NCBI RefSeq assembly: GCF_030063245.1
Contig: NZ_JASISR010000012.1
Location: forward strand, 1 to 64,000
DNA: 64,000 nucleotides
From: Paenarthrobacter sp. PH39-S1
GTDB lineage: Bacteria; Actinomycetota; Actinomycetes; Actinomycetales; Micrococcaceae
Reading direction: 5' to 3'
Numbering within the stretch: the stretch's first letter is position 1; each line of letters opens with the position of its first letter. Both the position numbers and the translations under genes were made by a program. Shown here piece after piece: positions 33,970 to 55,908 of the stretch. The notes below the pieces were generated by a model. The model was given only the letters and a program-made list of their open reading frames with translations, made no database searches and had not been told where the DNA came from.

Positions 33970-34359
33970 GCGCCAACTCCTCCTGCCACCAGCCTTCAAC
34001 ACCCTCGGCGTCGATCAAATTTACCTCGGCCCCACGCCGTGGATATCGGATACCTGCTATTGAACGCTTGCGCTCTGGACATGTCCAGCACCTCAGCGTT
34101 CAATTACGGTCAGGTCCTACATCGGCACGCTACCTGTGCAAACAAAGGACGACGACGGCGCCATCAGCTCGTGCGCGGACCGTTGGCCGCCGCCGTAGGA
34201 GCCACAGCCGACGACCGCCATGCTTTGCATACGAGCCGCGTTACAGCCGGCAGCAACCGGCTTCTGATGGACCGGTGCCAGTCACGTCGTTTCCCGTTTT
34301 CGTCCCCATGAACAGTCAAGAGGAGCTTGGCTCACGGACCGTGCGTGGTCGGAGGAATT
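33970..34359. other. Intergenic stretch between divergent units
   Basis: Holds the start regions of the ImmA operon and of the DUF4192 gene. No gene is supported; short frames here have no recognisable protein character, and no clear palindrome was found. Confidence 0.4.
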
Positions 34360-35418
34360 GTGGAACGGCTTAGCATCAAGACCCCTGACGACTTCATCAG
34401 TCTGATGGGGCACACACTCGGCTACTGGCCCAAGGAAAGCCTAGTCTGTGTCACCCTGGACGATCGGCGCATTGGTGCGACCCTTCGGGTGGACCTTCCT
34501 TCCCCAAAGTCCAACCCGGCCGGCTTCGTTGACGACGTGGTCAAATATGTTTCCAGCGACCGCGAGGCCACAGGCATCGTGTTCGGTATTTTCACGCATG
34601 CCGACTGGGCTCCCGGTGAAGATCGGCCGTACGAAGCCATGATGGAGCGGCTCGCCGGTGAGCTCTCCGCACGCAATATTAGATTGCGCGACGGTTGGAT
34701 CATTGGCGAGAAGTCCTTCGCCAACTACATCCGAATGGGGTCCGATTCCTTCTTGACTCATCCAATCGACCGCATCACCTCCAGCGAGCTCAACGCAGAG
34801 CTTGTGTTCCGCGGTTCCAGCATCGAGGCGAGCCCGGACTTCAGGATGCCGGTTATCGCCCAACGTGACGTGAGCGAAGACGTGATCAAGCACTGCCGCC
34901 GGATCGAGGCCATGAGTCCGCCGGTTGCCGTCGCCAACGCCAGGAAATTGTGGAGCAACCTTCTACAAAACACTGACCTCCCGACTGACGGCCAGGCCGC
35001 CGAGCTGCTGGCAAACTTCAAGTTCATCTCGGTACGGGACCGGCTGCTGGCGGACATCCCCGGACTCGACGACACCATGGGTGATCTGCTCTTGGCCCAA
35101 ACCAAACGAGCACCGCATTGGCGCCGCGTCGACCGCGCAACAGAGCTCCTCCTGCACCTATATACCCGCGCCGATGGAGCCGATGCCGCCCCCGTCCTCA
35201 CCAGCTTGGGCATTATTCAATGGTGGGAAGGCAAGGGATCGCGCGCCCACCAGTGCTTCCAACACGCACTCGAAGCCGACCCAAACTACCGGCTGGCCCA
35301 ACTCAGCGACCAAATGGTCGGCGCCGGTATCCTCGCCCCCTGGGCCATGGACCGAAACGCCGCCTATCAACCACGCATGAGCCACGGGCCCCGGATCGAA
35401 GGCATGGGAATGGCATAG
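34360..35418 (+). CDS. DUF4192 protein
   Basis: About 352 residues: V-E-R-L-S-I-K-T-P-D-D-F-I-S-L-M-G-H-T-L-G-Y-W-P-K-E-S-L-V (in pieces), then G-A-T-L-R-V-D-L-P, typical of DUF4192, a family frequent in actinobacterial genomes and plasmids with no known function. The C-terminal third (W-W-E-G-K-G-S-R-A-H-Q-C-F-Q-H-A-L-E-A-D-P-N-Y) looks like a TPR-like helical pair. GTG 34360 follows GGAGG at 5 bases; the longer frame from 34327 is unlikely. A related copy follows at 35484. Confidence 0.9.
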   Translation: MERLSIKTPDDFISLMGHTLGYWPKESLVCVTLDDRRIGATLRVDLPSPKSNPAGFVDDVVKYVSSDREATGIVFGIFTHADWAPGEDRPYEAMMERLAGELSARNIRLRDGWIIGEKSFANYIRMGSDSFLTHPIDRITSSELNAELVFRGSSIEASPDFRMPVIAQRDVSEDVIKHCRRIEAMSPPVAVANARKLWSNLLQNTDLPTDGQAAELLANFKFISVRDRLLADIPGLDDTMGDLLLAQTKRAPHWRRVDRATELLLHLYTRADGADAAPVLTSLGIIQWWEGKGSRAHQCFQHALEADPNYRLAQLSDQMVGAGILAPWAMDRNAAYQPRMSHGPRIEGMGMA

Positions 35419-35483: not shown

Positions 35484-36508
35484 ATGGAAACGCTCAGCAT
35501 TACAACACCGGCCGACGTCATCAGCTACATCATCCTCGGGCTCGGCAGTCGGACCACGGAAAGTCTCGTCCTCATCACCAGCGACAACAAACAGACCGGC
35601 GCAACACTCAGGATCGGTCCACCCGCGTCCGACGGCGACATGATCGGGTATGCGTGGAAGGTCACCGGATACTTCGCTGCCGATCTTAACGCCCCGGGCG
35701 TAGCGTTCGCCATCTTCACCGACGTTCCCGGACAACAGGTCTGCCACGACCGTACGCGGGATTGGTCGAAGCGCTGACCCGTTTTCTAACGAACCGCCTG
35801 ATCCTCGTTTACGACGGCTTCCTGGTCAGTGCAACCGGTTACGCGGACTATTTCTGCGACGAACCCCGCGCCGACAAGCAGAGCAGCCCGATCCAGGAAG
35901 GTGAAACCAGCGTCCTCAACACCGAGCTGGTCTATCGCTGCAGCAACATTCAGCCGTCAAACATCGTCGCCCTGCCGCCGGCCGCTCCGCACCCCAACTC
36001 GGGTGCCGCCGTCGAACATTTCAAGGGCTTCATCGAAGCCATGGACGGCCCAGTCGCCATGTCGCGGGCCAGAACCCTGTGGGACGCGATCCTGGAAACT
36101 GGCTCAATTCCCACGGACCAACAGACCTGTGAACTGATCGCCGACTTCCAAATCCCCGCCATCCGAGACCGGTTGATCGCCGATATCCCCGGCATCGACG
36201 AACCCATCACCCAAATCCTCATGGCTCAAACCCGTCAAGCACCGCGATGGAGCCGAGTGGAATGGGCTGAGCTGGTGCTCATGCACCTGTACACCCACTG
36301 CGACCCGAGTTACGTAGCCGCAGTCCTGACCGCCATCGGCTACATCAGCTGGTGGCAGGGCCGGGGAAGCAAAGCCATCCAGTTCATCGATATGGCCCTG
36401 GACGCCAGCCCGCAATACCGGCTTGCCGTCCTCATCCGTCAGATGCTGCGCGCGGGCTACCTTGCCAGTTGGGCGACCGACCGGCGCAAGGCCTACCGTA
36501 GCCTGTGA
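35484..36508 (+). pseudogene. DUF4192 protein, second copy, frameshifted
   Basis: Starts at ATG 35484 (AAGGAGAG ribosome site) with L-S-I-T-T-P-A-D-V-I-S-Y-I-I-L-G-L and runs to about 35750. There a missing C moves P-Y-A-G-L-V-E-A-L-T-R-F-L into another frame that continues to 36508 and ends like its neighbour (W-W-Q-G-R-G-S-K-A-I-Q-F-I-D-M-A-L-D-A-S-P-Q-Y-R-L). Restoring one base gives about 341 residues, the same length as the first copy. The two are tandem paralogues. Confidence 0.87.
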
Positions 36509-36773: not shown

Positions 36774-37232
36774 TTAACCAACTGAATCCACAAGGCGCGT
36801 ATACGGCTCTTTTTGGAGATATCGCCAACTTTGCGGCGGCTCAATTCCATGATCACTACGAAGCTCATGCAGTGGCAATGGACGCTGGCTAGCTGTCACG
36901 CTTCCGAGGTGAAGGGCAAACGCGACCGACGCTCCGTCGAAATATTCCATAAATGTTGCTTCAGTGATACCTAAGGCATCGGCATATTTCTCCCAAATTC
37001 GCTGGGGCGTGTCGGAGGCTATGCCAACAATTACTGCTTGAGCCGTTACGGCGCGATCTTCACCCGAAGAGTATACGATCAAAGGCATTCCTAGGGCGTT
37101 TCGGGGAACTTTCCTCCGCAATTCAATGGTTTTTGAGCCATCGAGGATAGCTCGAACGTAGCGCGATTGAATCGATATCAAGACCGCTACCGCCCTGTCG
37201 CCCTTTGGGTTTGGTGCAAGCGGAAAATTCAT
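36774..37232 (-). CDS. ASCH-domain (PUA-superfamily) protein
   Basis: A 152-residue protein. I-S-I-Q-S-R-Y-V-R-A-I-L-D-G-S-K-T-I-E-L-R-R-K-V-P (in pieces, about 19-43) is the ASCH opening with the G-x-K-x-x-E-x-R motif, followed by L-I-V-Y-S-S-G-E-D-R-A-V and later F-A-L-H-L-G. ASCH domains bind RNA or modified nucleotides. It overlaps the GNAT-PIN gene by ATGA. Last gene of the Type ISP operon. Base composition of this and the previous gene looks lower in GC than the methylase gene upstream (by eye). Confidence 0.86.
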   Translation of the reverse strand: MNFPLAPNPKGDRAVAVLISIQSRYVRAILDGSKTIELRRKVPRNALGMPLIVYSSGEDRAVTAQAVIVGIASDTPQRIWEKYADALGITEATFMEYFDGASVAFALHLGSVTASQRPLPLHELRSDHGIEPPQSWRYLQKEPYTRLVDSVG

Positions 37233-39226
37233 TTCTTCATCCCAGTCCAGTAAATCTCCTCGTAGGCCTCTCGAGGTATTTCCCTCAGCGTCGGGACACT
37301 AGACAGCGTTTTCCCGTGTCTAGCTACGATGCTTTGGGCCTCCGATAGTTTGACGCGTTGCCGAAAGACCTCTGTATCCCCGAACTGAATGGCACCCGCA
37401 CGATCGCTCTTCCCCGCGCTTGCCGCAATATCCGCCAATGACCATACACCGTAGCGTTGGAATTTCGAGTGCAAAGTCTCCGGTTTTGCCTTCATCGTTG
37501 AAATTAATCTGGATGACGCCACGATATAACCACCATTCTTACCGCTGGCATACCAGAGTATGCGAGCCGGGTTTTTGGGCATATTACCCGGTGACTTATA
37601 GTAGACATGCCGCCTACTCACTCCCAAATCATATTTTCGGTTCAGGAGCGGGCTATCGTATCCAAGAAGTTCACTGGCATACAACTGCTTAGTTGGAACG
37701 ACATAACAGAAAATAGGAGCATCAGTAATTTTGAGTGGCCAGAGCTCGCGTTCTAGAAGATCATATTCATCTGGATCTACGGCGTTTTGGGCCCCCCAAG
37801 GTCGGAGATCCAACGCGCCGACGACACCGGACGTCAGCTCAGACTCCGATACCTGCAGGTTGACTACAGCGATGGTCCAATATCCGTCGAGTTGGCGAGC
37901 CCCCTCAGATGCTAAAATTTCGTCTGCCTCCTCCCCGCCACCCGGGTGAGGATCCCGAAATACGATTCGGGCAGTTCCTTTCGCCATGGCTTCTTGCCGG
38001 AGCTGAAATAGGATCTGCTTCAATAGAGTCGGACCTAGCGTCGACCGACGAACCCGAATGATGTCAACCACGAGAGCTTCGTCCGTGACCCGTGTAGATA
38101 GGATCGCCTCAGCCAATTTTCCATTGGAGACATGAATGACTCGAATTCCGCATGCAGACTGTTGCCGTAAAAGCCGTCGAAAGGCGGATTTCGTTTCGCC
38201 AGAACGCGTTGCAATAAGGTGATCTAACCCCCGATCGCTTCCAGCAGGAGCGTCGCTGATTTCGATCACGGTGTTTTGTATTCTGTCTCCAGAATTTCGA
38301 CGCCGTCCCTTTAGCTCATCGATCTTGGCAGTTAACTGCGAGGGGTGAAGGATGTCGACGCTGTTTGCCAGCGCTAATGGTCCCATCAGTCGGCTTGCAT
38401 TTTCGTCGTTGGTCAGAAGGACATCCGCACCGGTGACAATAGCTTCCGCCAGTACTCGGGCGTCCGCCTCCAGACTCGGATCTCTTTTACGCTCTGATTC
38501 GGCTATCGAGTCAAAGAGTTCCCCGCTCAAATGGTCAACTGTCGCGAGGTCGACGGCGATAGCGTCGAACTTCCCGAAGCTCTTCATCACTTGAGTGCGT
38601 TCCGCCGCGTCGGGAGTCTTGGCAAGTTCATTCTTAACCGAAGGAGCCAAGCAGTACGACACTTCCCCCACGACAGCCGGCGAATCGAAATATTGGTTCG
38701 TCAGCCCCCGTTCCAGAATCATGTCCAGGACAACGTTGGTGTCTAATACAGCTTTGATCCGGTCGTCATCCTCCAGGGCAGACGCAAACAGATCCGTTTG
38801 ACCGAAGTCTCGCCACCAGACTGTCATCTCGGCTCGATCCTTGCCACGGCCCACACCTTGGCTCTGCGCGCAAAACCCTAGGCGCGGCCATGCCTCATTC
38901 GCCTCATAGTCGTGCCGGCACTTGAGCCTGATACCTTGGCGGTCCGAATGGCGGATCGCGATCTCGTCAATCAGTCTCCGCGCGACACCCCTCCGTCGGC
39001 CCTCGGGAGCAATGCATAGGTGGACAAGGCGTATATCCGCATACGGCAGATCAAAAAGCGTGTAGCCGATCAAGGAGGTAGCTTCGAAAGCGCCAATGAC
39101 ATGTCCCGCAGCTATTGCATTCGAAATCGCCTCCGGCGGTAAGAGACCCAAGTACCTTTTATATCGATTCCCCAAGATAACTATGGCGTCTAGATCTGAC
39201 TCCTTACATGTCCTTATGTCGATCAT
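37229..39226 (-). CDS. GNAT - PIN - GNAT-like - EVE/PUA-like multidomain protein
   Basis: A 665-residue protein. Residues 1-150: GNAT acetyltransferase (V-H-L-C-I-A-P-E-G-R-R-R-G-V-A-R-R-L at 68-85 is the acetyl-CoA loop). Residues about 158-310: PIN ribonuclease domain with acidic residues in A-V-L-D-T-N-V-V-L-D, E-A-D-A-R-V-L-A-E-A and V-L-L-T-N-D. Residues about 335-480: a second GNAT-like unit (V-V-D-I-I-R-V-R-R-S-T-L-G). Residues about 490-660: a region (V-S-R-R-H-V-Y-Y-K-S-P-G, I-L-W-Y-A-S-G, F-G-D-T-E-V-F) resembling EVE/PUA-like readers. ATG 39226 overlaps the stop of the restriction enzyme gene by ATGA, replacing a longer meaningless frame. The function is unknown; RNA cleavage and reading of modified bases are suggested. 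Confidence 0.85.
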   Translation of the reverse strand: MIDIRTCKESDLDAIVILGNRYKRYLGLLPPEAISNAIAAGHVIGAFEATSLIGYTLFDLPYADIRLVHLCIAPEGRRRGVARRLIDEIAIRHSDRQGIRLKCRHDYEANEAWPRLGFCAQSQGVGRGKDRAEMTVWWRDFGQTDLFASALEDDDRIKAVLDTNVVLDMILERGLTNQYFDSPAVVGEVSYCLAPSVKNELAKTPDAAERTQVMKSFGKFDAIAVDLATVDHLSGELFDSIAESERKRDPSLEADARVLAEAIVTGADVLLTNDENASRLMGPLALANSVDILHPSQLTAKIDELKGRRRNSGDRIQNTVIEISDAPAGSDRGLDHLIATRSGETKSAFRRLLRQQSACGIRVIHVSNGKLAEAILSTRVTDEALVVDIIRVRRSTLGPTLLKQILFQLRQEAMAKGTARIVFRDPHPGGGEEADEILASEGARQLDGYWTIAVVNLQVSESELTSGVVGALDLRPWGAQNAVDPDEYDLLERELWPLKITDAPIFCYVVPTKQLYASELLGYDSPLLNRKYDLGVSRRHVYYKSPGNMPKNPARILWYASGKNGGYIVASSRLISTMKAKPETLHSKFQRYGVWSLADIAASAGKSDRAGAIQFGDTEVFRQRVKLSEAQSIVARHGKTLSSVPTLREIPREAYEEIYWTGMKK

Positions 39227-42200
39227 TTGACTACAACTAACGCCGGGAGGTTGGTGACGAGCTTGATGGTCTCCAAGCTGACAGTAACGATCCGTTTGAC
39301 CAGATCGAGAATATAGCGCGGATCGTCGGTTTCGTCGCACCAGTCGTTCGGGTCGTTGACGATGCCGGAAGCCTTGTCTGTCTTCACCTGGTAGCGCTCC
39401 ATGATCCATTCGACGGCGGACCGCGAGCCGAGCATGTACTCGTATGCCTCCTCGGGGATGCCAGCCAGGGTGAGGTGCTGGTTGTAGATGATCCGGGTCC
39501 GGTCCTTGTTCTTGCCGAACGCCATCTTCTTTACCCGAAGGTCTTCGCCGGTGGGGCTCATCAAAGCTCCGGTCGACCAGATTTCCTCCAGCGGATACGG
39601 TTCCACGCTCTCGTAGCCGATGTGAAGGCCGGCGAGTTCGCGGCCGGCGGCGGCGAAGGCGGCGAAGTCGGCCGGGTCCGCGAGTTTGGGGATGCGTGGC
39701 AGCATCTTCTTCAGGTCCGCGGCAAACTCAGTGCGGTAGTCCGGCGAGTGCAGGAGCCCGTAGATGAAGTAGAAGATGTCATCCTTGGTCACCTGCGATC
39801 CGTAGGCAGCGCGATAGTCTGTGAGTGCCCAGTCGGTGATGTTGTCCACGCGTTCGTAGGCCGGGCCGGTTTCGGTGCCGGTGGTGGAGTCCGACGACGG
39901 CGCCAGCTGGCTGAGCAGGTCATCGCCAGCTTCCGCGCGGGGCGCGTAGGTGTATCGGGGGAAGAACTGGCCCCCGCTGCCTGCCCCTGTCACGTGGAGG
40001 TCAGGCAGGCAGTCTGTCGCCAACACTGAGAACGGAACGGCAGAGCCCATTCCGACGTAATAGAAGCCTATGTTCGTCGTTGCCTGTTCCGGATAGACCA
40101 ATTGCAGTTGGTAGATCATGTCATTGAATTGGCGGCTAAAGTAGACGACTTCTTTGGTAAACGGGCGGTACGTTCCTGTCCGAATTCCCTGCGTTTCAAA
40201 GTCGTATTCGGTTCCTCGGGCAAGCTGTGTCTTGTCGGCCCGGTTCCAGCTGAATCGTGTCGAATCCATGTCGATGAACTCGTCCGCCAATAGCGCAGAG
40301 GTTGCGGTCCGCGCGGCCTGATAGCCCTCGACCTGACTGTTGTAGAAGTCGATGGAACGCCTGACGTTCGTTTCAACTTTTGCACGTGATGAGTTGTAAA
40401 CCCATGCATCGCGGTTGGTCTTGAGTCCTCCGGAATATGTGTTGAAGATTGCGCTCGATCCGCCTGCCTTGTCCCCGACGGGAATGAACTCATCGAACGA
40501 AGCATTACGCTGGTTGATCCAGTCACCGTCGGAATTCGGCTGAAGCTGCTGCCAGTTTACGGACGCGAGACTGTCGCCGGAGACGATCTCGAGCTTTTGC
40601 TCGCGGGTGAGGTAGTCGCCGATGTCCCGGTAATGCAGCTGAGCCGCCGCGTCGCCGGCCTTGGTACGTCGGGCGGGGTTTTTGACCAGGAACATGATGG
40701 CCACGGTGTTGCGGCTGCCGCTGCCGAAGACCTTGCCGCCTTCCTTGCGGGACAGTTCCCCTGCCGTGCGCTGGTTGCCACGCAGGTTGTAGATGTAGAG
40801 GGAGTCGAATTCGTCCTGCAGCGATTTGCGTAGTCCGTCGGCGGTGTTCCCGTCGATGTAGCCGCCGTTGCTGACGAAGCCGACGATGCCGCCGTCGGCC
40901 GAGCCTTCGATACGGTCCGAGGCCCAGCGGATGGCGCGGATGTAGGAGTCGTAGAGCGAGTTCTTGTTTGTAGCTGTCGATCGGGCGGCGTAGGTCCGGG
41001 CGATGGAGCCGTCCAGGGTGGGGTATTTGAAGTTGGCGTTGTTGTCGTTGCCGCTGCTCTGGCCAACGGAGTATGGCGGGTTTCCGACGATAACACGGAT
41101 GTCCGTGGCGAGCTGTTTGCTGGCGCGTTCGTTGTTCTGCGGGAAAATCACGTCGTCGAGGGTGTCGCCGTCTTCGGTCATCTGGAAGGTGTCCGCCAGC
41201 ACGATGCCCTCGAAGGGGACATACTCATCCACGTCCGTGACGTTGATGTCGTTCAGCCCGTCACGATCCTCTGCGGTGAGGCCGTGGAAGGTGGCTTCGA
41301 TGTTGATGGCGGCAATGTAGTACGCCAGCAGCAGGATCTCGTTGGCGTGCAACTCGTTCGTGTATTTGTACAGCAGGTCCTCGGGCCTGATCAGGCCGGA
41401 CTGCAGGATGCGCACGATGAAGGTCCCCGTTCCGGTGAAAGGGTCAAGTACATGCACGCCGGGGTCGGACAGGGAGGCGACGAATTCGGCGCGGAGCAGG
41501 TCGTTCACGCCGCGGATAATGAAGTCCACCACCTCGGTGGGCGTGTACACGATGCCCAGGGATTCGGCGGCCCGCGGGAAGGCGTATTTGAAGAACTTCT
41601 CATAGAGTTGGTGGATGATCTGCTGCTTGCCCTCGGCACTGTCGATGCCCTCGGCCCGCATCCGGACGGAGGCGTAGAACTTTTCCAGCGACTCCGTTTC
41701 CGTTTGAAGTGATTTGCTTTCCAGCTGGGCCAGCATGTCCTCCATGACCAGGGAGACCGGGTTGTGCTTGGCGAAGGAATACCCCTCGAAGAGCGCGTCG
41801 AAGACCGGTTTGGTGATCAGGTGCTGAGAGAGCATGTCCACAGCGTCGGCGCGGCTGATGCTGTCGTTCAGGTTCCCGCGCAGGCCGGCAAGGAACCCGT
41901 CGAAGGCCTCCTGCACGCCGGAATCCGGGTCGTCGAGGATACCGTCGATCCTCAGGGTGTGTCGCTCGGCGATCTGCCGGACATCCTTGGCCCAGTCCTC
42001 CCAATACCGCCGGTCCCCCACTTTCTGCACGATCTTGGCGTAGATCGCTTCCCGCCATTCCTCCAGGTTCGGGAAGCTCAGTGCCGTCTGCACTCCGCCG
42101 GCGAGCCCGCTGCCCGCGTCAGTGCCGCCGTCGTCGGTCTCGTTTTCGCTGTCCGTGCCCGCGCCGACGCCGATGATCTGCAGCTTGTCGTCCTTGGCCT

Positions 42201-44136
42201 GGTTCAGCTCGATCTTGTTGACCATCGCGTTGAAGCGGTCATCGTGCGCGCGCAGGGCCTGCAGGACGTCCCAGACGACCTTGTACTTGCGGTTGTCCTT
42301 CAGCGCCTCCTCCGGCGGCACATCCGCCGGGACCGCGATGGGCAAGATGATGTAGCCGTACTCCTTGCCCGGGGCCTTGCGCATCACCCGGCCCACCGAC
42401 TGGACGACGTCCACCTGGGAATTGCGCGGGTTCAAGAACAGCACCGCATCCAGCGACGGGACGTCCACACCCTCGGACAGGCAGCGGGCGTTGGAGAGGA
42501 TCCGGCACACCGGGCCATCTATTGCAGAGCCGGTGGCGGTGTCCGCCTTGAGCCAATCCAGTTTCGCGCTCCGGTCCAACACATTGAAGGTGCCGTCCAC
42601 ATGCTCGCCCTCGCAGCGCAGCGAGCCCTCGTGTTCGCGGGCGAGCTGGCCGGTGACGTCGGCGAACATGCCCGCGATCTTCTTGGACTCCTTGATGTTC
42701 TGTGCGAAAGCGACGGCCCGGCGCATCGGGGCGCCGGTAACCTCGGTGCCGACGCCATCCCAGCGGGGTTGCGCCACGCCGCGCTTGGCCAACCCGTTCC
42801 AGCAGCCCACGATCTTGGCCACGTCATCCAGGCTCAGCTCGTTGTCCTCATCGGTGAGCAGCTGCTGGAAGGTCTTGTTGACGGAATCCTCGTTCACGGC
42901 CAGGACCAGGACCTTGTAGTCCGCGAGGAGATCCTTCTCCACGGCCTCCCCGAACCCGAGGTGATGGAACTCCGGACCATACGCGCCGCCGTCGTCCATG
43001 GAAAAGACCTTGACGTCGTTCTCCGCCGCCTTCGTCTTGGACTCCTGCACATAAATCCGCGGCGTCGCCGTCATATACAGGCGCTTCTCCGCCTTCAGGA
43101 AACCCTGGTCATGGACGCGCACGAACGCGGAATCATCCTCATCCCCCTGCGTCAAACCCGTGGTCCGGTGCGCCTCATCGCAAATGATCAGGTCAAATTC
43201 CGGCAGGCCCAGCGCCTGCGCCTGCGCGACGACGTCGATCGACTGGTAGGTGGAAAAGACAACGGTGAGGTGGTCCTGACCGGTGCTGATCTGCGAGCGC
43301 GCGTAGAGCTTTTGCGGATCTGTCGATGCGGGGAACGCGAGGTCGTGGACGCTCATGTCCTCCTGCTTTTTGCCGACCTTGGTGTCTGAGCAGACCGCCA
43401 GCGGGCGCAATGGGACCTCGGCTTCGGCGGTCCATTCGACGAGCGTTTGCTGTAGTAGCGAGATGGAGGGGACCAGGAACAGCACGTTCCCGCCCACCGG
43501 GACCAGCTCCTGCGCGATTTGCAGCGATGTATACGTTTTGCCGGTGCCGCAGGCCATGATCAGCTTGCCGCGGTCATGGGTCTCGAAGCCCGCCCGGACC
43601 TGCTCGATGGCCTTGCGCTGGTGCGGGCGCGGACGCTTCCTGTCCTTGCGCTCCATTTCCGCCGGCTGGTCCAAATCGAAGGTGGACCAGTCCACCACGG
43701 AGTCCGCCAGGTCCTGGAACCGCAGCCTGGTGACCGGCTTGGACTGGCCCCGGAGGGCGTCCTCGGCGTGCTTGCTCCAGTTGTCCGTGGTGGAGACGAT
43801 CATCCCATACTGGAAGTCCGATTTACCGGCTGCGGTGAAAAAGGAGTCGATCTGTTCCTTGCGCAACTGCCGCGCCGGATCATAGAACTTGCATTGGATC
43901 GCCACCAGCGCGCCAGTGCCCCGCTCCTTGGCCACCAGATCGATGCCGGTGTCCACCTGACCGTTCCGGCCCGGCCACTCGTTCCAGAGCCAGACGTCGG
44001 AGAACTGATCCGTGTACTGCGGATCCAGCTTCAGGTAGGACTGGATCAGGTTCTCAAACTTGCTGCCCTTGTCATGCTCGTCCGATGCGGTGAAGTACAG
44101 CTTGTCGAGCAGGGTGGCGAAGGCGGATGAAGGCAT
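39223..44136 (-). CDS. Type ISP restriction-modification enzyme (single polypeptide)
   Basis: A 1637-residue enzyme like LlaGI/LlaBIII in length and order. Mrr-type nuclease: D66 in D-T-G-I-D and Q81-C-K83 in A-I-Q-C-K-F. Superfamily 2 helicase: Walker A A-C-G-T-G-K-T (195-201), D-E-A-H (320-323), M-T-A-T-P-R, and motif VI Q-S-V-G-R-V-M-R (579-586). Coupler region about 690-850. N6-adenine methyltransferase: motif I D-P-F-T-G-T-G-T-F (898-906), motif IV N-P-P-Y (1019-1022). The C-terminal target-recognition part fills about 1200-1637. It would methylate one strand of an asymmetric site and cut after translocation. The frame is intact over 4.9 kb. First gene of a three-gene operon. Confidence 0.95.
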   Translation of the reverse strand: MPSSAFATLLDKLYFTASDEHDKGSKFENLIQSYLKLDPQYTDQFSDVWLWNEWPGRNGQVDTGIDLVAKERGTGALVAIQCKFYDPARQLRKEQIDSFFTAAGKSDFQYGMIVSTTDNWSKHAEDALRGQSKPVTRLRFQDLADSVVDWSTFDLDQPAEMERKDRKRPRPHQRKAIEQVRAGFETHDRGKLIMACGTGKTYTSLQIAQELVPVGGNVLFLVPSISLLQQTLVEWTAEAEVPLRPLAVCSDTKVGKKQEDMSVHDLAFPASTDPQKLYARSQISTGQDHLTVVFSTYQSIDVVAQAQALGLPEFDLIICDEAHRTTGLTQGDEDDSAFVRVHDQGFLKAEKRLYMTATPRIYVQESKTKAAENDVKVFSMDDGGAYGPEFHHLGFGEAVEKDLLADYKVLVLAVNEDSVNKTFQQLLTDEDNELSLDDVAKIVGCWNGLAKRGVAQPRWDGVGTEVTGAPMRRAVAFAQNIKESKKIAGMFADVTGQLAREHEGSLRCEGEHVDGTFNVLDRSAKLDWLKADTATGSAIDGPVCRILSNARCLSEGVDVPSLDAVLFLNPRNSQVDVVQSVGRVMRKAPGKEYGYIILPIAVPADVPPEEALKDNRKYKVVWDVLQALRAHDDRFNAMVNKIELNQAKDDKLQIIGVGAGTDSENETDDGGTDAGSGLAGGVQTALSFPNLEEWREAIYAKIVQKVGDRRYWEDWAKDVRQIAERHTLRIDGILDDPDSGVQEAFDGFLAGLRGNLNDSISRADAVDMLSQHLITKPVFDALFEGYSFAKHNPVSLVMEDMLAQLESKSLQTETESLEKFYASVRMRAEGIDSAEGKQQIIHQLYEKFFKYAFPRAAESLGIVYTPTEVVDFIIRGVNDLLRAEFVASLSDPGVHVLDPFTGTGTFIVRILQSGLIRPEDLLYKYTNELHANEILLLAYYIAAINIEATFHGLTAEDRDGLNDINVTDVDEYVPFEGIVLADTFQMTEDGDTLDDVIFPQNNERASKQLATDIRVIVGNPPYSVGQSSGNDNNANFKYPTLDGSIARTYAARSTATNKNSLYDSYIRAIRWASDRIEGSADGGIVGFVSNGGYIDGNTADGLRKSLQDEFDSLYIYNLRGNQRTAGELSRKEGGKVFGSGSRNTVAIMFLVKNPARRTKAGDAAAQLHYRDIGDYLTREQKLEIVSGDSLASVNWQQLQPNSDGDWINQRNASFDEFIPVGDKAGGSSAIFNTYSGGLKTNRDAWVYNSSRAKVETNVRRSIDFYNSQVEGYQAARTATSALLADEFIDMDSTRFSWNRADKTQLARGTEYDFETQGIRTGTYRPFTKEVVYFSRQFNDMIYQLQLVYPEQATTNIGFYYVGMGSAVPFSVLATDCLPDLHVTGAGSGGQFFPRYTYAPRAEAGDDLLSQLAPSSDSTTGTETGPAYERVDNITDWALTDYRAAYGSQVTKDDIFYFIYGLLHSPDYRTEFAADLKKMLPRIPKLADPADFAAFAAAGRELAGLHIGYESVEPYPLEEIWSTGALMSPTGEDLRVKKMAFGKNKDRTRIIYNQHLTLAGIPEEAYEYMLGSRSAVEWIMERYQVKTDKASGIVNDPNDWCDETDDPRYILDLVKRIVTVSLETIKLVTNLPALVVVK

Positions 44137-44189
44137 GGGTCTATCTTCGCCTATGGCGATGGTGGGCGCCGCATCCAGAGTGGGTCCTA

Positions 44190-44692
44190 TCTTTTTTTCA
44201 AGCCGCTTGAGGGGTTTTTCCCGGTACGGGATTGCGTTTCTGGGTATGGCGAAGAGGACGCTGCTGCGGTGCCGGGCGAGACAGATGATAGCCGCGTTTG
44301 TGTTCCTTGTGCCAACAGCACGTTAAAACTGACCGGTGGCAGCAGGTATTTTTGGACAGGGTCAGGTGCCGGAGCGGCAGTGATCGACGCTATGCCTACG
44401 TAGGAGCCGAGATGGCCGGCGGTCTGGAAGCTGCTGTCACTGCCGACGGTCAGGAGTATCGTCGGAGCGGTCTTGATGCAGACTCCCGGCACGGACATCA
44501 AGAACCGGGAACAAGGGAAGCCATCAAGAAGTTTTTCGATTTCTTCGGCCACGGTCGCCCGATGGTGCATCCGTCCTCGATGATCTGTCCGGCAATTCGC
44601 GGAATCACGAGTTCGACGGCTTCGGCTCCGGCGACGGTCACGCTCTGTTCCCCGAGAGCAGTGAAGATCGCGTCAATGAGCTTCACCGGGTC
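44190..44692 (-). pseudogene. IS110-family transposase remnant
   Basis: Pieces in three frames: L-I-D-A-I-F-T-A-L-G-E-Q-S-V-T-V and V-I-P-R-I-A-G-Q-I (44498-44692), then V-A-E-E-I-E-K-L-L-D-G-F-P, M-S-V-P-G-V and A-G-H-L-G-S-Y-V-G-I-A (around 44390-44560), then A-A-I-I-C-L-A-R-H-R-S-S-V-L-F-A-I near 44220-44300. This order is the C-terminal half of IS110 transposases with the conserved P-G-V region. The N-terminal DEDD catalytic half is gone. It sits directly upstream of the restriction operon. Bases 44693-44954 show no gene. Confidence 0.8.
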
Positions 44693-44954
44693 CTTGCGGC
44701 TATGGTTACGGGCCCAGCCAGCATGTTCGGCCGGCCGACAGCATGCAGACCCGTGGGGACCCGCATGCCGGATGAACGGCTCAAGCACCAGCACCTGAAT
44801 CAGCACTCCCGGAAGGGCCCGTTCCAGGGAGGGGAAGATCTGCAGCAATAGGTAACGCAGACAGTGTGACTCGATTCCATCTGGCTGCCCTGGAAGATTC
44901 CCTTCCATCTTCAGGCCATGCAAGGCAAGCGGCGTCGCGCGCGGACGCGCAGGG

Positions 44955-45182
44955 CTAAAGTGCTTCTTTCGCCAAAGCCGCAACTTCTGGCGGCGTGGGG
45001 CGGTCCAGCCGCTCGTCCAAGGTGACGCGGAGGCGGGCAGCAGCGACTTGGACCCGGCGATCCTGAGGAGAGAGATCCTCCAGTTTGAAGGTCTTCGGGA
45101 CAACAGCTTGCCTTGAGCTTCGCATAGGGAGGGCACCGAACTGATTCCTGACAGTCTGGTGGGCCGAAACCTTCCTGACCAT
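44955..45182 (-). CDS. Small hypothetical protein
   Basis: A 75-residue protein: M-V-R-K-V-S-A-H-Q-T-V-R-N-Q-F, then L-E-D-L-S-P-Q-D-R-R-V-Q-V-A-A-A-R-L-R-V, ending P-E-V-A-A-L-A-K-E-A-L. Balanced composition and an amphipathic second half suggest a real gene. Not recognised. It starts 2 bases after the stop of the membrane protein gene upstream and is probably co-transcribed with it. Confidence 0.6.
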   Translation of the reverse strand: MVRKVSAHQTVRNQFGALPMRSSRQAVVPKTFKLEDLSPQDRRVQVAAARLRVTLDERLDRPTPPEVAALAKEAL

Positions 45183-46245: not shown

Positions 46246-46803
46246 ATGAATACGAAGTTATGCAACCAGTGCGGCGAATCGTTTGAACCGAGACGTACCA
46301 CCCAGCGGTATTGTTCCACGAAGTGCTCGCATAGGCACCGGGATCGGGAGTGGCGCAACCGTCACCAATCAAAGGCGGCACAGTCACTGCGCGCGCAGCT
46401 TACCGTTGCCGCGACAGAGAATCGAATAAATCGAGAAGCCGCCGCCACAAAGTTCCAGCGTCAATTGGCCGAAGCACGCCAAACCGCCCGTGACCAACTC
46501 GAGCGGGAGGTCAACCGGCACGATCAGGAGTTAGGGAAACTCCATGCGAGACTCCGTGACCTAGCAACAGTCAACGTCGATCTTTGTAGTGAGATCCCTG
46601 AGTTGAAGGCACAGGTCACCGAGCTGCAGCTGGACAACGCACGGCTGCTCCACGGCCAGCATGCAGATTCCGAAGAACTCATGCAGATCGCCGGCAGGTT
46701 GTTTCAGCTATCGTCGCGGCTGGGCATCCCGTTGGACAAGGCCACAAAGGAGATATTCCAGCGTCGTGGTTGGCGGACAAACACTCTGGTCACCGAACCT
46801 TGA
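46246..46803 (+). CDS. Zinc-ribbon coiled-coil protein, mobilisation accessory candidate
   Basis: A 185-residue protein. The N-terminus has C-N-Q-C-G-E-S-F-E and Y-C-S-T-K-C-S-H-R-H-R-D-R-E-W-R, a C-x2-C ... C-x3-C zinc ribbon. Residues about 45-145 are a long heptad-rich coiled coil (A-T-K-F-Q-R-Q-L-A-E-A-R-Q, then L-D-N-A-R-L). Its stop overlaps the TTG start of the relaxase gene (TTGA), so the two are translated together. Small DNA-binding accessory proteins often accompany relaxases; that role is inferred from position. Confidence 0.75.
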   Translation: MNTKLCNQCGESFEPRRTTQRYCSTKCSHRHRDREWRNRHQSKAAQSLRAQLTVAATENRINREAAATKFQRQLAEARQTARDQLEREVNRHDQELGKLHARLRDLATVNVDLCSEIPELKAQVTELQLDNARLLHGQHADSEELMQIAGRLFQLSSRLGIPLDKATKEIFQRRGWRTNTLVTEP

Positions 46804-49800
46804 CCGTCTCGATTGCCAAGCTGGCGGCCGGCGTCGGTCTCAAGTACCTGCTGAAAACCACGATGCAGGATGACCTGATCAAACCCGTCGCTGACGTCAC
46901 CAGTTACTACATCAAAGCCGGGACCCCGCAAGGACGGTGGCTCGGTCTTGGGCTGGCCGGCATTGACCGAAAACTGCAAGATCCAGTGACGTCCACCGAT
47001 GCCAACGCCTTATTCACGCACGCCGCGCACCCAGACACCAAAGTAATCCTGGGCCGACCATATGGGCGGACCACTGTCGCCTACCGGAACGGCGAGGAGC
47101 AGCAACGCCACGCGGTCGCAGGTTTTGATCTGACGTTTAGCGTACCCAAGTCTGTGTCCGTGCTCTGGGCACTCGCAAACAAAGAGGTCCAACGGCAAAT
47201 ACTCGAAGCACACCACTTTGCCGTCACCACCACGCTCACGTGGCTCGAGCAGGAAGCAATCCACACCAGAACGGGACGCAACGGCGTCGCCCACGTCGGC
47301 ACAAAAGGAGCCATTGCCGCGGCCTTCGACCATTGGGAATCCCGCGCCGGCGACCCCCAGCTCCACACACATCTGGTCATTGTAAACCGGGTGCAACGGC
47401 TCAGCGACGGGGCGTGGACCACTCTTGATTCCCGAACGTTGTACAAGGCCGTCGTCGCCGCCAGCGAACATTACAACGGCCTACTCTTCGACGAGCTGCA
47501 ACGCGACCTGGGTACTGAAGGCGAGTTCCGTCCACAAACCACTGCGCGGCGAAATTTCGGCCATGAGCTCGTCGGTATTGACTCGGAGCTCATCAAAGAG
47601 TTCTCCAACCGTTCGCGACTCATCGACGCCGAAGCCGACAAACTCAGCCAGAACTGGACCCGCGAGCACGGCCGACAGCCCAGCGCCACGACCATCATCA
47701 AGCTCCGCCAGACAGCCACACTGTCCACCCGCAGGCCCAAGGACGAGTCCCCGACGCCTCTGCCTGCGCTAAGAGCCGGATGGCGGCAGCGGGCTGAAGC
47801 CAAGGGGCAGAACCCGAATGCCGTCGTCGAAGGCGCCATCCACCGTTCCATACAGCGGCCTGTCAGGGCAACGGACCTCTCGCCTGAATGGACCAACGCC
47901 GCCGCAGTACTCACCCGCGAAGGAGTCGCGCAGAGGAGGGCTACCTGGAACCGTTGGAACCTTCTGGCAGAGGCCGAGCGCGTTTGTGCCGACATCCGCT
48001 GCTATTCCCCCGCCGATCGCCGCTTCTTGATCAACGCCGTCACCACCGCGGCAGAATCCCAGTCCGTTCCTCTCAACCACGACCGCTACCGCCTCCCGCT
48101 GAATGCCCGCGGAGACCTCGCCTACGCCGGCCACAGCCTCTTCGATTTCCCAGGCGCTCGACTCTACACTGACGCCAGTGCGCTCGCCAACGAAGCGTTC
48201 GTCATGAATGCCAGGAACGACGACAACGGGCCAGCCGTCTGTTCGGCCGAAGCCGGCGATTTGCTCTCCGCATACCGGCACACCGCTGGCTATCGGCTTG
48301 CCCCAGACCAACGCGGCGCCGCGGAGGCCGTCCTGACCAGCGGCAACTGCTTGGATGCCATCGTCGGACCGGCCGGGTCCGGGAAGACGACCACGATGGC
48401 GGCCATCAAGGGCGCTTGGGAACGCACCCACGGTGACGGAACCGTCGTCGGACTTGCACCCGCTGCTGCGAGCGCCGACGTTCTTGCAAGGGAACTGGGT
48501 ATCACGGCCGAGAATGTCGCCAAGTGGCTCTACGAGAGTGTCGGGCAAGGTGCGGGCAACAGGGCAGATCGTTTCCACGCATTGGAGGCGGCGCGGAACG
48601 GTTCACGCAGCTTTGCCTCGAAGTATCTGGCCAGCCTGTCCCTGCAGCAGGCGCAGTGGCAGTTCAAGACGAATCAGCTCGTCATCGTTGACGAAGCCTC
48701 CATGCTTTCAACCATCCAGCTCGCAGGGCTAGTGCACCAGTCGCGGGATGCGGGAGCGAAACTGCTCCTGGTTGGCGACCCAGCCCAGCTCGATTCGATT
48801 GACGCTGGCGGCATCCTCGGGTGGCTGCATCGTGAAGGGAAAGCGATTGAGCTGACGAGCATCCACCGCTTCACCCATGAGTGGGAAGGCTCCGCTTCGC
48901 TGATGCTCCGCGATGGCAACATCGAGGCTATCGACCAATACGCCGCCCACGGCCGTATCTCACACGGCGATTTCACGGGCATGGTCGAAGACGCCTACCG
49001 AGGCTGGACCCGTGACCTCCACGACGGCAAATCGTCCATCCTCATCGCCCCGGACAACGACACCGTAACCACGCTCAACGAACGCGCGCATGCTGACCTG
49101 GTCGAGTCAGGCCGCGTCGATGCCGAACATACAGTCGTTCTCAGCGACGGGCTGACCGCAGGGCGCGGGGACACGATCATTGCCCGCAAAAACAACCGCA
49201 CGCTGACCGACAGCAACGGCGACTATCTGCGCAACGGCACCCTTCTCCAGATCACGGAGCAACCGCGCAAAGCCAAGCATGTCGCTGCTCGGCGACTGGA
49301 CACCGGTGCCATGATCACGCTGGATCCGGTCTACCTGCTCACATCGGCCGAACTGGGTTACGCGACGACTGCCCACCGCTCACAGGGCATCACCGTGGAC
49401 ACCAGCCACACAGTCCTCACGCAAGGCCGCCTCACCCGCGAACTCTTCTACGTCGGCATGACCCGCGGCCGCACCAGCAACACCGCATACGTGTGCGAAT
49501 CCAGCCCCGCCGTTGACGAACCCCAAATGACACAGCCCGCGGAGGATTGGCTCCAAATCCTCGGCGAGGTCCTAGCCTCCGAAGGTTCCGAACGCACCGC
49601 CCATGAAGTCCGCCAGGCCCAACTCGCCAAGAGCGACACACTCCAGCGACTTGCTGCCGAATACGACTACCTTGCCCAGCTCGCCGCTGCCGAGCACCTC
49701 ACCGTTGTCATTGACAAAGCGATGCCCGACGGCGTCACTCACCTTCAAGAATCACCAGCCTGGGGTGCCGGAGTAGCAGCGTGGCGACGAGCCATGGTCG

Positions 49801-50348
49801 TCAACCCGCTGGCTGCCGAGCGGGTGCTGGAGAACGCGCTGCGCCATTCCGGGGATGCCGAGGACCACATGGCTGTTATCCATGCGAGGCTTCGCCAATT
49901 CGCTCGCAGCACATCCCTGGAATCTCTGAGCATCCTTCAAGAGTCACTGCACACCGACCGGGCCGCCTTGAGGGACATGATCAATCAGGTTCGCTCCCGC
50001 ACCGTTCAACGCCGTGATCGTGTTGGTCGAGAAGCTCTTACTGCCCGTCCTTCTTGGGTTCATGCGCTACAAAAGAAAATCGGATCTACAGTCACAGCAG
50101 ACCAATGGGCAGCCGTCGTCGAAGAAGTCGCCGCCTATCGTGACCGCTGGGGCATAGGTGTACCCACAGAGCCGCTCGGTCCAGTACCTGCAAACTACGA
50201 ATGGGAGCAATCGGAACATCGAAGGGACCTCGAATGCCGAATCCAATCGATGACGGAGGATGCGGCGCATCATTCACCGGCTGACCAAACGGCGCTTCCT
50301 GAACCTATTGCGCGACAACCCCTTATTTCTGTCGGCCCCGCGATCTAA
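46800..50348 (+). CDS. MobF relaxase-helicase (TrwC/TraA type)
   Basis: A 1182-residue conjugative relaxase. The N-terminus has a candidate nicking Tyr (Y16 or Y36/Y37) and the metal-binding histidine triad H178, H189, H191 in F-D-H-W-E-S and Q-L-H-T-H-L. The C-terminal superfamily 1 helicase has Walker A G-P-A-G-S-G-K-T (about 523-530) and V-D-E-A-S-M-L (about 630). It nicks oriT, stays bound to the strand and unwinds the plasmid. The start is TTG 46800, where similarity begins (T-V-S-I-A-K-L), overlapping the upstream stop by TTGA; the longer frame from 46770 is unlikely. Confidence 0.95.
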   Translation: MTVSIAKLAAGVGLKYLLKTTMQDDLIKPVADVTSYYIKAGTPQGRWLGLGLAGIDRKLQDPVTSTDANALFTHAAHPDTKVILGRPYGRTTVAYRNGEEQQRHAVAGFDLTFSVPKSVSVLWALANKEVQRQILEAHHFAVTTTLTWLEQEAIHTRTGRNGVAHVGTKGAIAAAFDHWESRAGDPQLHTHLVIVNRVQRLSDGAWTTLDSRTLYKAVVAASEHYNGLLFDELQRDLGTEGEFRPQTTARRNFGHELVGIDSELIKEFSNRSRLIDAEADKLSQNWTREHGRQPSATTIIKLRQTATLSTRRPKDESPTPLPALRAGWRQRAEAKGQNPNAVVEGAIHRSIQRPVRATDLSPEWTNAAAVLTREGVAQRRATWNRWNLLAEAERVCADIRCYSPADRRFLINAVTTAAESQSVPLNHDRYRLPLNARGDLAYAGHSLFDFPGARLYTDASALANEAFVMNARNDDNGPAVCSAEAGDLLSAYRHTAGYRLAPDQRGAAEAVLTSGNCLDAIVGPAGSGKTTTMAAIKGAWERTHGDGTVVGLAPAAASADVLARELGITAENVAKWLYESVGQGAGNRADRFHALEAARNGSRSFASKYLASLSLQQAQWQFKTNQLVIVDEASMLSTIQLAGLVHQSRDAGAKLLLVGDPAQLDSIDAGGILGWLHREGKAIELTSIHRFTHEWEGSASLMLRDGNIEAIDQYAAHGRISHGDFTGMVEDAYRGWTRDLHDGKSSILIAPDNDTVTTLNERAHADLVESGRVDAEHTVVLSDGLTAGRGDTIIARKNNRTLTDSNGDYLRNGTLLQITEQPRKAKHVAARRLDTGAMITLDPVYLLTSAELGYATTAHRSQGITVDTSHTVLTQGRLTRELFYVGMTRGRTSNTAYVCESSPAVDEPQMTQPAEDWLQILGEVLASEGSERTAHEVRQAQLAKSDTLQRLAAEYDYLAQLAAAEHLTVVIDKAMPDGVTHLQESPAWGAGVAAWRRAMVVNPLAAERVLENALRHSGDAEDHMAVIHARLRQFARSTSLESLSILQESLHTDRAALRDMINQVRSRTVQRRDRVGREALTARPSWVHALQKKIGSTVTADQWAAVVEEVAAYRDRWGIGVPTEPLGPVPANYEWEQSEHRRDLECRIQSMTEDAAHHSPADQTALPEPIARQPLISVGPAI

Positions 50349-50377
50349 GCTAGGTCTCGAAAGGAAGAGCTCCGGTC

Positions 50378-50908
50378 ATGAACCCAATGATTAAGCCAAC
50401 GGTTATCTCGATGCCCCTCCTCGTGGCGAGTGTCTTAGTGGGCTTGGGTGCGGCGTATTTAGTTCCCGCGACCATGGCAAACTGGCCAGCCCCTGCATGG
50501 CTAACGACCATCGCTTCGGTATTTCTCGTACTACTGGCGTTGCTGGCACTGCGCTGGATCATCAAGGTCCGCCAAGCTCGACAATGGAACAAGAACGCAC
50601 AGCTTCAGTGGCAACAACTTGAAGTCGCGAGACGAACCGGCGGTACAACAGCGGAAGTCACCGTCCTCAGCGTTCAGGAAGTCCAGCCCACCGGCGCCTG
50701 GGTAACAATCAACTGGGACCAATTCGGCTACCAGCAGCCAGCCTGGATCGAAGGCAGAGGTGGAACCTACTGGCCGGGCTCCGTCCTACTCATCACTCCC
50801 GACCCTGCACAGGTACACATCGGTCAGCCGTGGCCACCAACGTACCGGATTGCCGAAACGGATTGCCGCGCTGTTGCCCCTGCTGTTGGTCAGTTGGCTC
50901 TCCGATAG
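50378..50908 (+). CDS. Two-TM membrane protein, function unknown
   Basis: A 176-residue protein with two transmembrane helices in residues 10-62 (S-M-P-L-L-V-A-S-V-L-V-G-L-G and S-V-F-L-V-L-L-A-L-L-A-L) and a soluble C-terminal domain (V-T-V-L-S-V-Q-E-V, then W-V-T-I-N-W-D). AAGGAG lies before ATG 50378. Located 29 bases after the relaxase stop, so probably co-transcribed. Not recognised. Confidence 0.72.
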   Translation: MNPMIKPTVISMPLLVASVLVGLGAAYLVPATMANWPAPAWLTTIASVFLVLLALLALRWIIKVRQARQWNKNAQLQWQQLEVARRTGGTTAEVTVLSVQEVQPTGAWVTINWDQFGYQQPAWIEGRGGTYWPGSVLLITPDPAQVHIGQPWPPTYRIAETDCRAVAPAVGQLALR

Positions 50909-51291
50909 ATGCAGGTTCCAAGATGCTCGTCACTTTTCCGGCCCTCGCCCTGCAGTCTTCGTCAAGCGAAATCCAGCGACCTTCGACAGCTGGACCAAAT
51001 GTGCGTGGCACGCCGAAATGGTCAGAACACCGTTGACGAGGGCTCCGAACCGGACAAATACCCCACAAACTACGAGTGCGTTGGAAAAGCTGAAGACCAA
51101 AGGCAGCGCCGAAGTGGCCCTGTGACGTAAACGTAGGATCTCAACGTCACGGGAACCTCTCTTTTGGGTAAACTCCATGTCCGGATTGGGCAACTGCTCG
51201 AGCAACTTCACAACGCAGTCCGGGGAGCCAACGATGCTGCTGATGGTGTGATCATGGTAACTGGATTGCTTTATTTGATGGATTCCATATA

Positions 51292-51314
51292 AGTGGTCGG
51301 CAAGGTCGACCACT
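51292..51314. repeat. Perfect 8-bp hairpin
   Basis: AGTGGTCG-GCAAGGT-CGACCACT in the otherwise gene-poor stretch 50909-51364. It might end transcription from either side, but no T run follows. The rest of that stretch shows no convincing gene. Confidence 0.4.
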
Positions 51315-51364
51315 ATGAGTCGGCGTTAGTTCTCTGTCCGAGGGCTTGCACAGGACCGGCTGGA

Positions 51365-51487
51365 GGGTGACCCGAGGGCCTTCGATGCACGCCAGCATCT
51401 CCATGGTTTATGAGAAACAAAACGGGCAGAAAAAAATAGCCCAGCTCGTTAAGCTTCTGTATTTCATCCGCGACGGCGACACGTAGT
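51365..51487 (+). pseudogene. Serine recombinase C-terminal remnant
   Basis: The plus strand reads P-R-A-F-D-A-R-Q-H-L-H-G, then one frame over Y-E-K-Q-N-G-Q-K-K-I-A-Q-L-V-K-L-L and R-D-G-D-T before a stop. This is the spacing of the DNA-binding end of Tn3-type resolvases (G-R-P-R-A-F-D-A-R-Q ... Y-E-K-Q-N-G ... I-A-Q). It is short and degraded. Confidence 0.45.
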
Positions 51488-51495
51488 TGTGCCGC

Positions 51496-52194: not shown

Positions 52195-52436
52195 GGACTC
52201 ATCCTAGGGTTGGGGAGCGACAGGTCCGATGCTTCCGCTCCGTGTCCCCTCGTTCGTCTTCCTCGGCGATGACTTTAGCCGTCACTTGGGACCAGGGCTG
52301 TGAGGGGCCCAAGAGCGCCACAAGGCGCTGAAAGCTCTTTGCACTGGGAAAAATTCGACTCCCAACGCTGAGTGTCCCGTCGGAGCTGAAAAACCTTGCG
52401 GCATACATTGCGTGCTGTAAGGGGAATAGCGCTTTT

Positions 52437-53816: not shown

Positions 53817-53849
53817 GCGACCCTCCTGCTGTCACGCTGTCCGTTGAAC

Positions 53850-54110
53850 AGTTCGGTGCACGGTGCAGTATGCGACTCGAATAGTTCCGCAAACTCGACG
53901 GTCGAGTTTTCGTCCTCCCCTATGGATGGACAGGAGGTAGGTTTCCTGACTTTTGTGAGTTTGGGTTGTTTGCTGCCGGACCGGCCATTGGCTTTGCTCG
54001 TCCGCATGCTGTCGCGGGTGCGTTGCGCGAGCTAAGTCGGATTCGAATTCGGCGCGCTTGACCAGGAGAAGGATATTGAAGAGCAGGCAGCCCCAGCGCA
54101 TGTCCCAGGC
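53850..54110 (-). pseudogene. Serine recombinase remnant, multiple frameshifts
   Basis: Minus-strand pieces: L-F-N-I-L-L-L-V and A-E-F-E-S-D-L-A-R-A near 54070, then G-S-K-Q-P-K-L-T-K-V in another frame, T-V-E-F-A-E-L-F-E near 53900, and Y-C-T-V-H-R-T-V-Q-R-T-A in a third. In order these match the end of the catalytic domain, linker and helix-turn-helix of resolvases like that at 7585-8147. Not functional. Confidence 0.65.
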
Positions 54111-54167
54111 TATTTTTCGTGATATTTGAAAGTAGACCTTACAATACAAACTCGAACACTGCTCGTT

Positions 54168-55325: not shown

Positions 55326-55413
55326 TGCCGCGACCTCCACAACTCCACGTGCCGGGCTTTCCGCCCGGCTACCTGTTCATGGTGTTGTGAAACGGGAACG
55401 GCATGGTGCAGGT

Positions 55414-55899: not shown

Positions 55900-55908
55900 G
55901 CTGTTTTC

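Follow-up and report, generated by a model that had tools for sequence, protein, structure and literature searches.

The window analysed here is a 64,000-nucleotide stretch of a contig from Paenarthrobacter sp. PH39-S1. At positions 36774-44136 it carries three minus-strand genes, which encode a Type ISP restriction-modification (RM) enzyme (gene 1), a large protein with the domain order GNAT-PIN-GNAT-EVE (gene 2), and an ASCH protein (gene 3). A first-pass annotation, made from the sequence alone, had described the three genes as joined by ATGA overlaps and, upon re-reading the window, we found both of them: the stop codon of the Type ISP gene overlaps the start codon of gene 2 at 39223..39226, and that of gene 2 overlaps the start codon of the ASCH gene at 37229..37232 (both on the minus strand).

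Gene 1 (39223..44136, minus strand) encodes a protein of 1637 amino acids (aa) with the Pfam domains Mrr_cat_2, ResIII, ISP_coupler, N6_Mtase, and Type_ISP_C, which place an Mrr-type nuclease, an SF2 ATPase, a coupler, an N6 methyltransferase, and a specificity domain in a single chain. It aligns to LlaBIII over residues 4-1633. Judged by these domains and this alignment, gene 1 is a complete Type ISP enzyme, as the first-pass annotation had proposed in calling it LlaGI/LlaBIII-type. A second, partial Type ISP sequence is found in the window's own genome (G000:C50:3534-4952; query residues 4-469, 50% identity).

Gene 2 (37229..39226, minus strand, as are all of its domains) encodes 665 aa and is a divergent member of the PADLOC family PDC-M11A. 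Its N-terminal GNAT acetyltransferase domain (~residues 4-146; 38789..39217) was assigned from a Pfam match (Acetyltransf_10, 30 bits) and a loop alignment, in which the coenzyme A (CoA) loop reads RRRGVA and is canonical; when profile A2 was compared with PDB sequences, the matches were GNATs, at the N-terminus only. A PIN ribonuclease-like domain follows (~residues 156-300; 38327..38761), whose Pfam match, PIN_3 at 17.7 bits, is below the cut-off, and in which the acidic positions are D162, E200, D255, and D274. The second GNAT-fold unit (residues 317-459; 37850..38278) has a degenerate CoA loop, and the C-terminal EVE/PUA-like domain (~residues 490-665; 37232..37759) is assigned by homology only, the confidence of the structural model being low there. 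The order of PIN, GNAT, and EVE was recovered in a colinear hhalign match to PIN-GNAT-EVE proteins over residues 152-662 (E 7e-15). An AlphaFold model based on a three-row alignment was poor overall (mean pLDDT 42), and we interpreted only the second GNAT region, which adopts a GNAT fold at 317-459. PIN and EVE folds were absent from the structure matches of this low-confidence model, which excludes neither.

Gene 3 (36774..37232, minus strand; 152 aa) matches the PADLOC model PDC-M11B (E 3e-26). It is a homologue of a protein labelled GevA antitoxin by the depositor of a phage genome (32% identity over 125 aa; see below) and is related to ZmASCH (E 4e-15), an ASCH protein that weakly cleaves single-stranded RNA and has Tyr47, Lys53, and Ser128 in its cleft (PMC5615036). 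In an alignment read by eye, the counterparts in gene 3 are Tyr54, Arg60, and Ser135; two of the three residues are thus kept, and Arg stands in place of Lys. The domains and ASCH partner originally proposed for genes 2 and 3 (hereafter, the pair) are therefore supported.

The pair differs in composition from the gene to which it is joined. The GC content is 61.8% for gene 1, 53.6% for gene 2, and 51.2% for gene 3, and the corresponding values at third codon positions (GC3) are 0.836, 0.560, and 0.471. Since genes 2 and 3 are lower than gene 1 in both measures, the operon was likely assembled from two sources, in agreement with the first-pass annotation. A scan for promoters and terminators gave results at chance level only.

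The GNAT-PIN-GNAT-EVE clade and its shorter relatives

Eleven full-length GNAT-PIN-GNAT-EVE proteins were found, comprising that of the window, two from Arthrobacter, one each from Calothrix, Prevotella, and Nostoc (all three from a plasmid collection), and five from further genomes of the same order. The search that yielded these five matched 7 of 396 genomes at E <= 1e-12; of the remaining two matches, one is a fragment and the other comes from the genome of the window itself. The phylum-wide profile A1 matched 6/396 genomes, where five of the six matches cover just 55-118 residues of the GNAT region and were not counted, and profile A3 matched 70/396, with full-length proteins only in G278 and G372, a remnant in G307, and short GNAT or PIN stretches in the others. 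A search with PDC-M11B matched 8/296 genomes, of which G278 and G307 were viewed in their gene context. No full-length gene 2 protein was present in viral contigs, in a pattern-based search that finds close relatives only, or among 50,697 phage records.

In a tree built on the PIN-to-EVE part, the 11 proteins are split with a support of 100/100 from ten PIN-GNAT-EVE proteins without the N-terminal GNAT (the shorter relatives) and from GevT, a GNAT-EVE protein of Escherichia phage PhiR47_2. The midpoint root served for drawing only, GevT and G782 have long branches, and 12 of the 22 rows deviate in letter make-up; vL126 (fragmentary), vL122 and vL124 (near-copies), and L088 (a split gene) were left out of alignment and tree. 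On this tree, proteins with the N-terminal GNAT form a clade of their own within the module.

Several features are shared across the clade. All 11 members have an ASCH neighbour, which lies directly downstream on the same strand in ten and is convergent in one (L151). All four acidic PIN positions are intact in 9/11, and the loop of the N-terminal GNAT reads R/Q-x-x-G in 8/11, with the G or A at the last place that makes it strictly canonical in seven. The second GNAT has a G-x-K-x-G-E loop in none of the 11, versus all ten of the shorter relatives aligned. GevT, outside that alignment, differs at this loop, so the motif is not universal. A clean "reciprocal" loss of GNAT motifs, which at first held in 6/6 members, was weakened by the five that were added. 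The pair is also lower in GC than its surroundings in L006 (0.548 vs. 0.635), slightly so in L007 (0.511 and 0.531 vs. 0.546), and in 5/5 further loci.

Four of the 11 pairs lie on the same strand behind restriction-type genes (Type ISP, Type II, Eco57I-like, and DISARM). Beyond the window, these are Calothrix, where the pair stands behind a C5 methyltransferase and Eco29kI and is followed by McrB and McrC; Prevotella, where it stands behind an operon of an Eco57I-type methylase, then an ATPase and one further open reading frame (ORF); and L152 (8389-17530), where DISARM DrmA-DrmB-DrmC precede it. Three more pairs have a defence gene within ~2.5 kb, namely GajA/GajB (L151), a PD-T4-6-like kinase (L153), and nSTAND3 and TIR proteins (L007). 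In all, a recognised restriction or defence gene is near 7/11 pairs, window included, which bears out the defence link proposed for genes 2 and 3; no recognisable defence neighbour was seen at L006, L024 (where an annotated AAA ATPase is next), L150 (an 8.3-kb contig), or L154.

The shorter relatives have a wider range. At eight alphaproteobacterial plasmid loci, the gene usually has an upstream helix-turn-helix or ASCH partner and an AAA ATPase, with a DUF262-HNH gene at one locus and AbiEii, NACHT, or ABC-three-component genes at others. CRISPR-Cas occurs at one further of the 13 plasmid loci viewed. The module is present in eight viral contigs and, among the 50,697 phage records, 14 have a match to the shorter protein; in 12 the PIN part is missing, and the other two are duplicate entries of a single archaeal virus. 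The PIN-GNAT-EVE gene of the archaeal prophage psiM100 (L132 2548-5840) is largely inside an annotated inserted fragment, and its ASCH gene (ORF5) carries an annotation of similarity to ORF5 of phage psiM2. A further embedded case is found in G278 (L025 1-8793), where PIN-GNAT-EVE and ASCH genes come after PglX-, PglZ-, and BrxL-like genes, identified by eye, and thus stand beside a BREX-like operon.

Genes downstream of Type ISP enzymes

In a family sample of 197 genomes, 57 had some Type ISP match, and at least 17 full-length loci were found, window included; this count is a lower bound, as full scoring was limited to two candidates in each genome. One in-frame stop is present in 3/17 of these (L063, L067, and L076), and Type ISP genes may decay often. 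None of the 16 other loci has the pair in the surrounding DNA covered, which reaches 838 bases downstream at L037, ~3.4 kb at L071, and 4-6 kb at the other loci.

At 5/17 loci (a tally that covers Type ISP genes alone), a downstream gene overlaps the Type ISP stop codon by ATGA. Besides gene 2 of the window, the coupled genes encode a protein of 814 aa without a Pfam match (L062), a uracil-DNA-glycosylase-like protein of 191 aa in the UDG superfamily (L037), an AriA/GajA-like ATPase of 642 aa (L071), and a protein of 333 aa without a Pfam match (L075). The five proteins have no significant mutual similarity, and, when each frame was shuffled 500 times, none remained open over 190 codons. Elsewhere, a same-strand ORF begins 115-245 bases past the Type ISP gene, encoding Abi_2 (L070), RAMA (L069), a GTPase (L063), or a protein without a Pfam match (L067); L064, L072, L073, and L076 have same-strand ORFs downstream too, and L065, L066, L068, and L074 have no ORF of at least 100 aa within 250 bases. 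Among plasmids, an AbiJ_NTD3 protein is encoded 100 bases past the Type ISP gene of R. qingshengii, and three further records (L083-L085) have no such ORF.

As five of 17 loci couple by ATGA to five unrelated genes, the 3′ end of Type ISP genes has the look of a docking slot. Tentatively, and with somewhat more doubt than belief, we suggest that the Type ISP stop codon accepts unrelated effector genes via the same ATGA overlap, to give an immunity of two layers that are locked in dose, the second being interchangeable. The GNAT-PIN-GNAT-EVE pair would then be a portable module, able to attach to DISARM and Type II genes as well, in which the N-terminal GNAT would take over as catalytic head from the degenerate second GNAT.

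The pair itself is seen with Type ISP in a second lineage. Type ISP occurs in 186 plasmid records and, among the 60 listed, one is shared with the 30 records of the shorter protein or its PIN-less kin: Rhodococcus ruber Y14, which has Type ISP, PIN-GNAT-EVE, and ASCH genes in the same order as the window. The R. ruber protein is on the other side of the tree, so the link with Type ISP arose at least twice. The pair is absent beside four Type ISP loci in viral contigs, and we conclude from the loci and the tree that the pairing is rare but of independent origin at least twice.

The operon lies beside genes of a mobile element. Directly upstream of the Type ISP gene is an IS110-type transposase remnant (44187..45136, minus strand), of which the 44187-44567 part matches Transposase_20 (E 7e-6) and the ORF at 44501-45136 has no Pfam match. 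Further on are a TrwC relaxase (46770..50348, plus strand; TrwC E 7e-79) and, within 54168-62117, ArdC, the coupling protein TraG/D, and TrbL. The window is thus part of a conjugative element of a soil bacterium. Its conjugation genes and the ArdC-like anti-restriction gene span 46770-62117, and the element bears both restriction and anti-restriction. On the other side of the operon are two adjoining DUF4192 ORFs (34327-35418 and 35762-36508), the second of which matches the C-terminal part of the family only.

Function of the pair

Sequence and fold identify the pair as a divergent form of PDC-M11, or (PIN)-GNAT-EVE + ASCH, that has an extra N-terminal acetyltransferase, a composition unlike that of the Type ISP gene, and an ATGA overlap with it. 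We somewhat favour the view that the Type ISP enzyme of this conjugative element has a self-contained toxin-antitoxin-like defence pair docked on its stop codon as a second layer. This view is supported by the matches to PIN-GNAT-EVE and to PDC-M11A/B, the ASCH partner of every clade member, homology to GevA, same-strand restriction contexts, the gene order in R. ruber, the conservation of the PIN and N-terminal GNAT motifs in most of the clade, and the ZmASCH cleft residues kept in gene 3.

In such a scheme, the pair would act like a toxin-antitoxin or abortive-infection unit with the large protein as a conditional toxin. The EVE domain would bind a modified base, most likely in RNA, and the effectors may be the PIN nuclease, by cleavage of RNA, and the N-terminal GNAT, by acetylation, for example of charged tRNA, which GNAT toxins are known to acetylate (PMC7641849), while the second GNAT may have a structural role. 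Since a PIN domain, an EVE domain, and two GNAT folds occur together, the target is most likely to be RNA or charged tRNA. The ASCH protein would restrain the large protein and may bind single-stranded RNA itself, and the coupling to the Type ISP gene would tie the dose of the pair to restriction. When restriction is evaded or blocked, the pair may halt translation in the infected cell. This trigger is the least supported step; a second layer set off by failed restriction or by modified phage DNA, as the first-pass annotation envisaged, is plausible.

A number of observations weigh against this interpretation. The pair stands beside Type ISP at only one of the 17 full-length family loci, that of the window, and 10/11 clade pairs have no Type ISP gene in the surrounding DNA examined. 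The pairing that the first-pass annotation emphasised is real, and recurs with the shorter relative on one independent Rhodococcus plasmid, but the pair is not specific to Type ISP. The module had also been described before (see below). Within the clade, the acidic PIN residues are lost in two of 11 members (Calothrix and Nostoc), the loop Gly of the N-terminal GNAT is gone in three, and one more has Ser at the last place. The shorter relatives on plasmids are mostly stand-alone, with RM genes recognised at 2/13 loci viewed; at the eight alphaproteobacterial loci, the 8 kb around the gene contain neither a methyltransferase nor an RM subunit among the annotated genes and, at several of them, the upstream partner is annotated as helix-turn-helix, which fits a repressor equally as well as an antitoxin. 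The terms "toxin" and "antitoxin" are the labels of one GenBank record, and we found no paper that uses the names GevT and GevA in a search that did not extend to bioRxiv preprints. We found no activity, toxicity, or phage assay of the gene 2 protein. As the module occurs on plasmids mostly without recognised RM genes, in viral contigs, and in phage records, it is self-sufficient, and its tie to Type ISP may be transcriptional only.

The last point leads to the strongest alternative, namely that the pair is an autonomous toxin-antitoxin (addiction) unit that merely borrows the Type ISP transcript. Functionally independent of restriction, it would either act alone or serve to stabilise the conjugative element. 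The composition break within the operon, the shorter relatives that stand alone on many plasmids or occur in phage records and viral contigs, and the conjugative nature of the element all fit such a unit, as do the close relatives in L006 and L007, which lack Type ISP and lie behind upstream gaps of several hundred bases. However, placement on the same strand behind restriction-type genes is repeated in the clade and, with Type ISP, in R. ruber, and PIN-GNAT-EVE has been linked to type I RM in print (PMC7641849); we consider the addiction unit possible, but the less probable of the two. It is unlikely that the pair is instead a reader and editor of modified bases, in which EVE and ASCH would locate such bases in the DNA or RNA of a phage, and acetylation by the GNAT, either of the base or of a protein bound to it, would expose the modified nucleic acid to restriction. 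Both domains are members of a superfamily of modified-base readers, DNA-base acetylation has been proposed (Iyer et al., as cited in PMC7641849), and the Calothrix pair is situated between a methyltransferase system and McrBC; the acidic PIN positions kept in most of the clade nevertheless point to RNA cleavage, and the biochemically studied ASCH relative is a nuclease of single-stranded RNA (PMC5615036). A chance arrangement with no conserved defence link, the outcome by which the first-pass annotation proposed to judge itself, would suit the single pair among 17 Type ISP loci and the bare surroundings of L006, but is very improbable and already largely refuted by the restriction or defence genes near seven of 11 pairs and the independent occurrence of the same gene order in R. 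ruber.

Type ISP enzymes are treated as complete one-gene systems. Should the ATGA coupling seen at 5/17 loci be functional, work on Type ISP protection has so far dealt with an incomplete system. In addition, the window offers a compact case for asking what EVE/ASCH toxin-like pairs sense, as restriction and the second layer are separately switchable, and the extra-GNAT clade shows which parts of the module can be exchanged.

Comparison with known systems

Gene 1 resembles LlaBIII and LlaGI in homology and domain order, over its whole length in the case of LlaBIII, and differs in that its gene overlaps a downstream gene, as do four others of the 17 family loci.

The GNAT toxins TacT and AtaT are small type II toxins. 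In contrast, the GNATs of the window are two of the four domains of a larger protein, which has an ASCH partner and a putative toxin role, and many other GNAT enzymes reach equal or higher scores.

In the lambdoid E. coli phage PhiR47_2 (PV340567.1), the depositor named the GNAT-EVE gene GevT toxin and the ASCH gene GevA antitoxin. The shorter relatives align with GevT over their GNAT-EVE part, and the ASCH protein of the window is homologous to GevA; by comparison, GevT lacks both the PIN domain and the N-terminal GNAT, and is phage-borne beside cI.

PADLOC lists the module as PDC-M11, a naming that reportedly stems from a preprint on embedded defences; no paper naming PDC-M11 was found in the literature searched. 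As in PDC-M11, the ASCH protein of the window is PDC-M11B, whereas its large protein is ~180 residues longer than the 486-position PDC-M11A model. That model matches the shorter R. ruber protein at E 2.7e-152 and, in the clade, extends from PIN to EVE in Prevotella (L023; 3e-19) and L152 (2e-13); it matches the window protein over residues 182-288 only (E 4e-4) and the L007 protein not at all at E 0.01.

The closest precedent is (PIN)-GNAT-EVE + ASCH, described by Bell, Wolf, and Koonin (2020; PMC7641849) as a putative toxin-antitoxin system and tied to type I RM; what such EVE/ASCH toxin-like pairs sense is, according to that paper, experimentally uncharacterised. Common to both are the colinear PIN, GNAT, and EVE domains, the separate ASCH gene, and defence contexts that include RM. 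In the passages of that paper which describe the module, PIN is the N-terminal domain and no GNAT is mentioned ahead of it, and the term "Type ISP" does not occur in the paper. The clade of the window, by contrast, adds an N-terminal GNAT with a canonical CoA loop to a second GNAT whose loop is degenerate, has Type ISP and DISARM partners and, in the window, an ATGA overlap to Type ISP. By homology, the pair is therefore a divergent PDC-M11 or (PIN)-GNAT-EVE + ASCH module. Modules of this kind are already known as candidates for a role in defence, and what is new here is the architecture of the variant; the parts that a specialist may not expect are the coupling to Type ISP and the docking-slot pattern.

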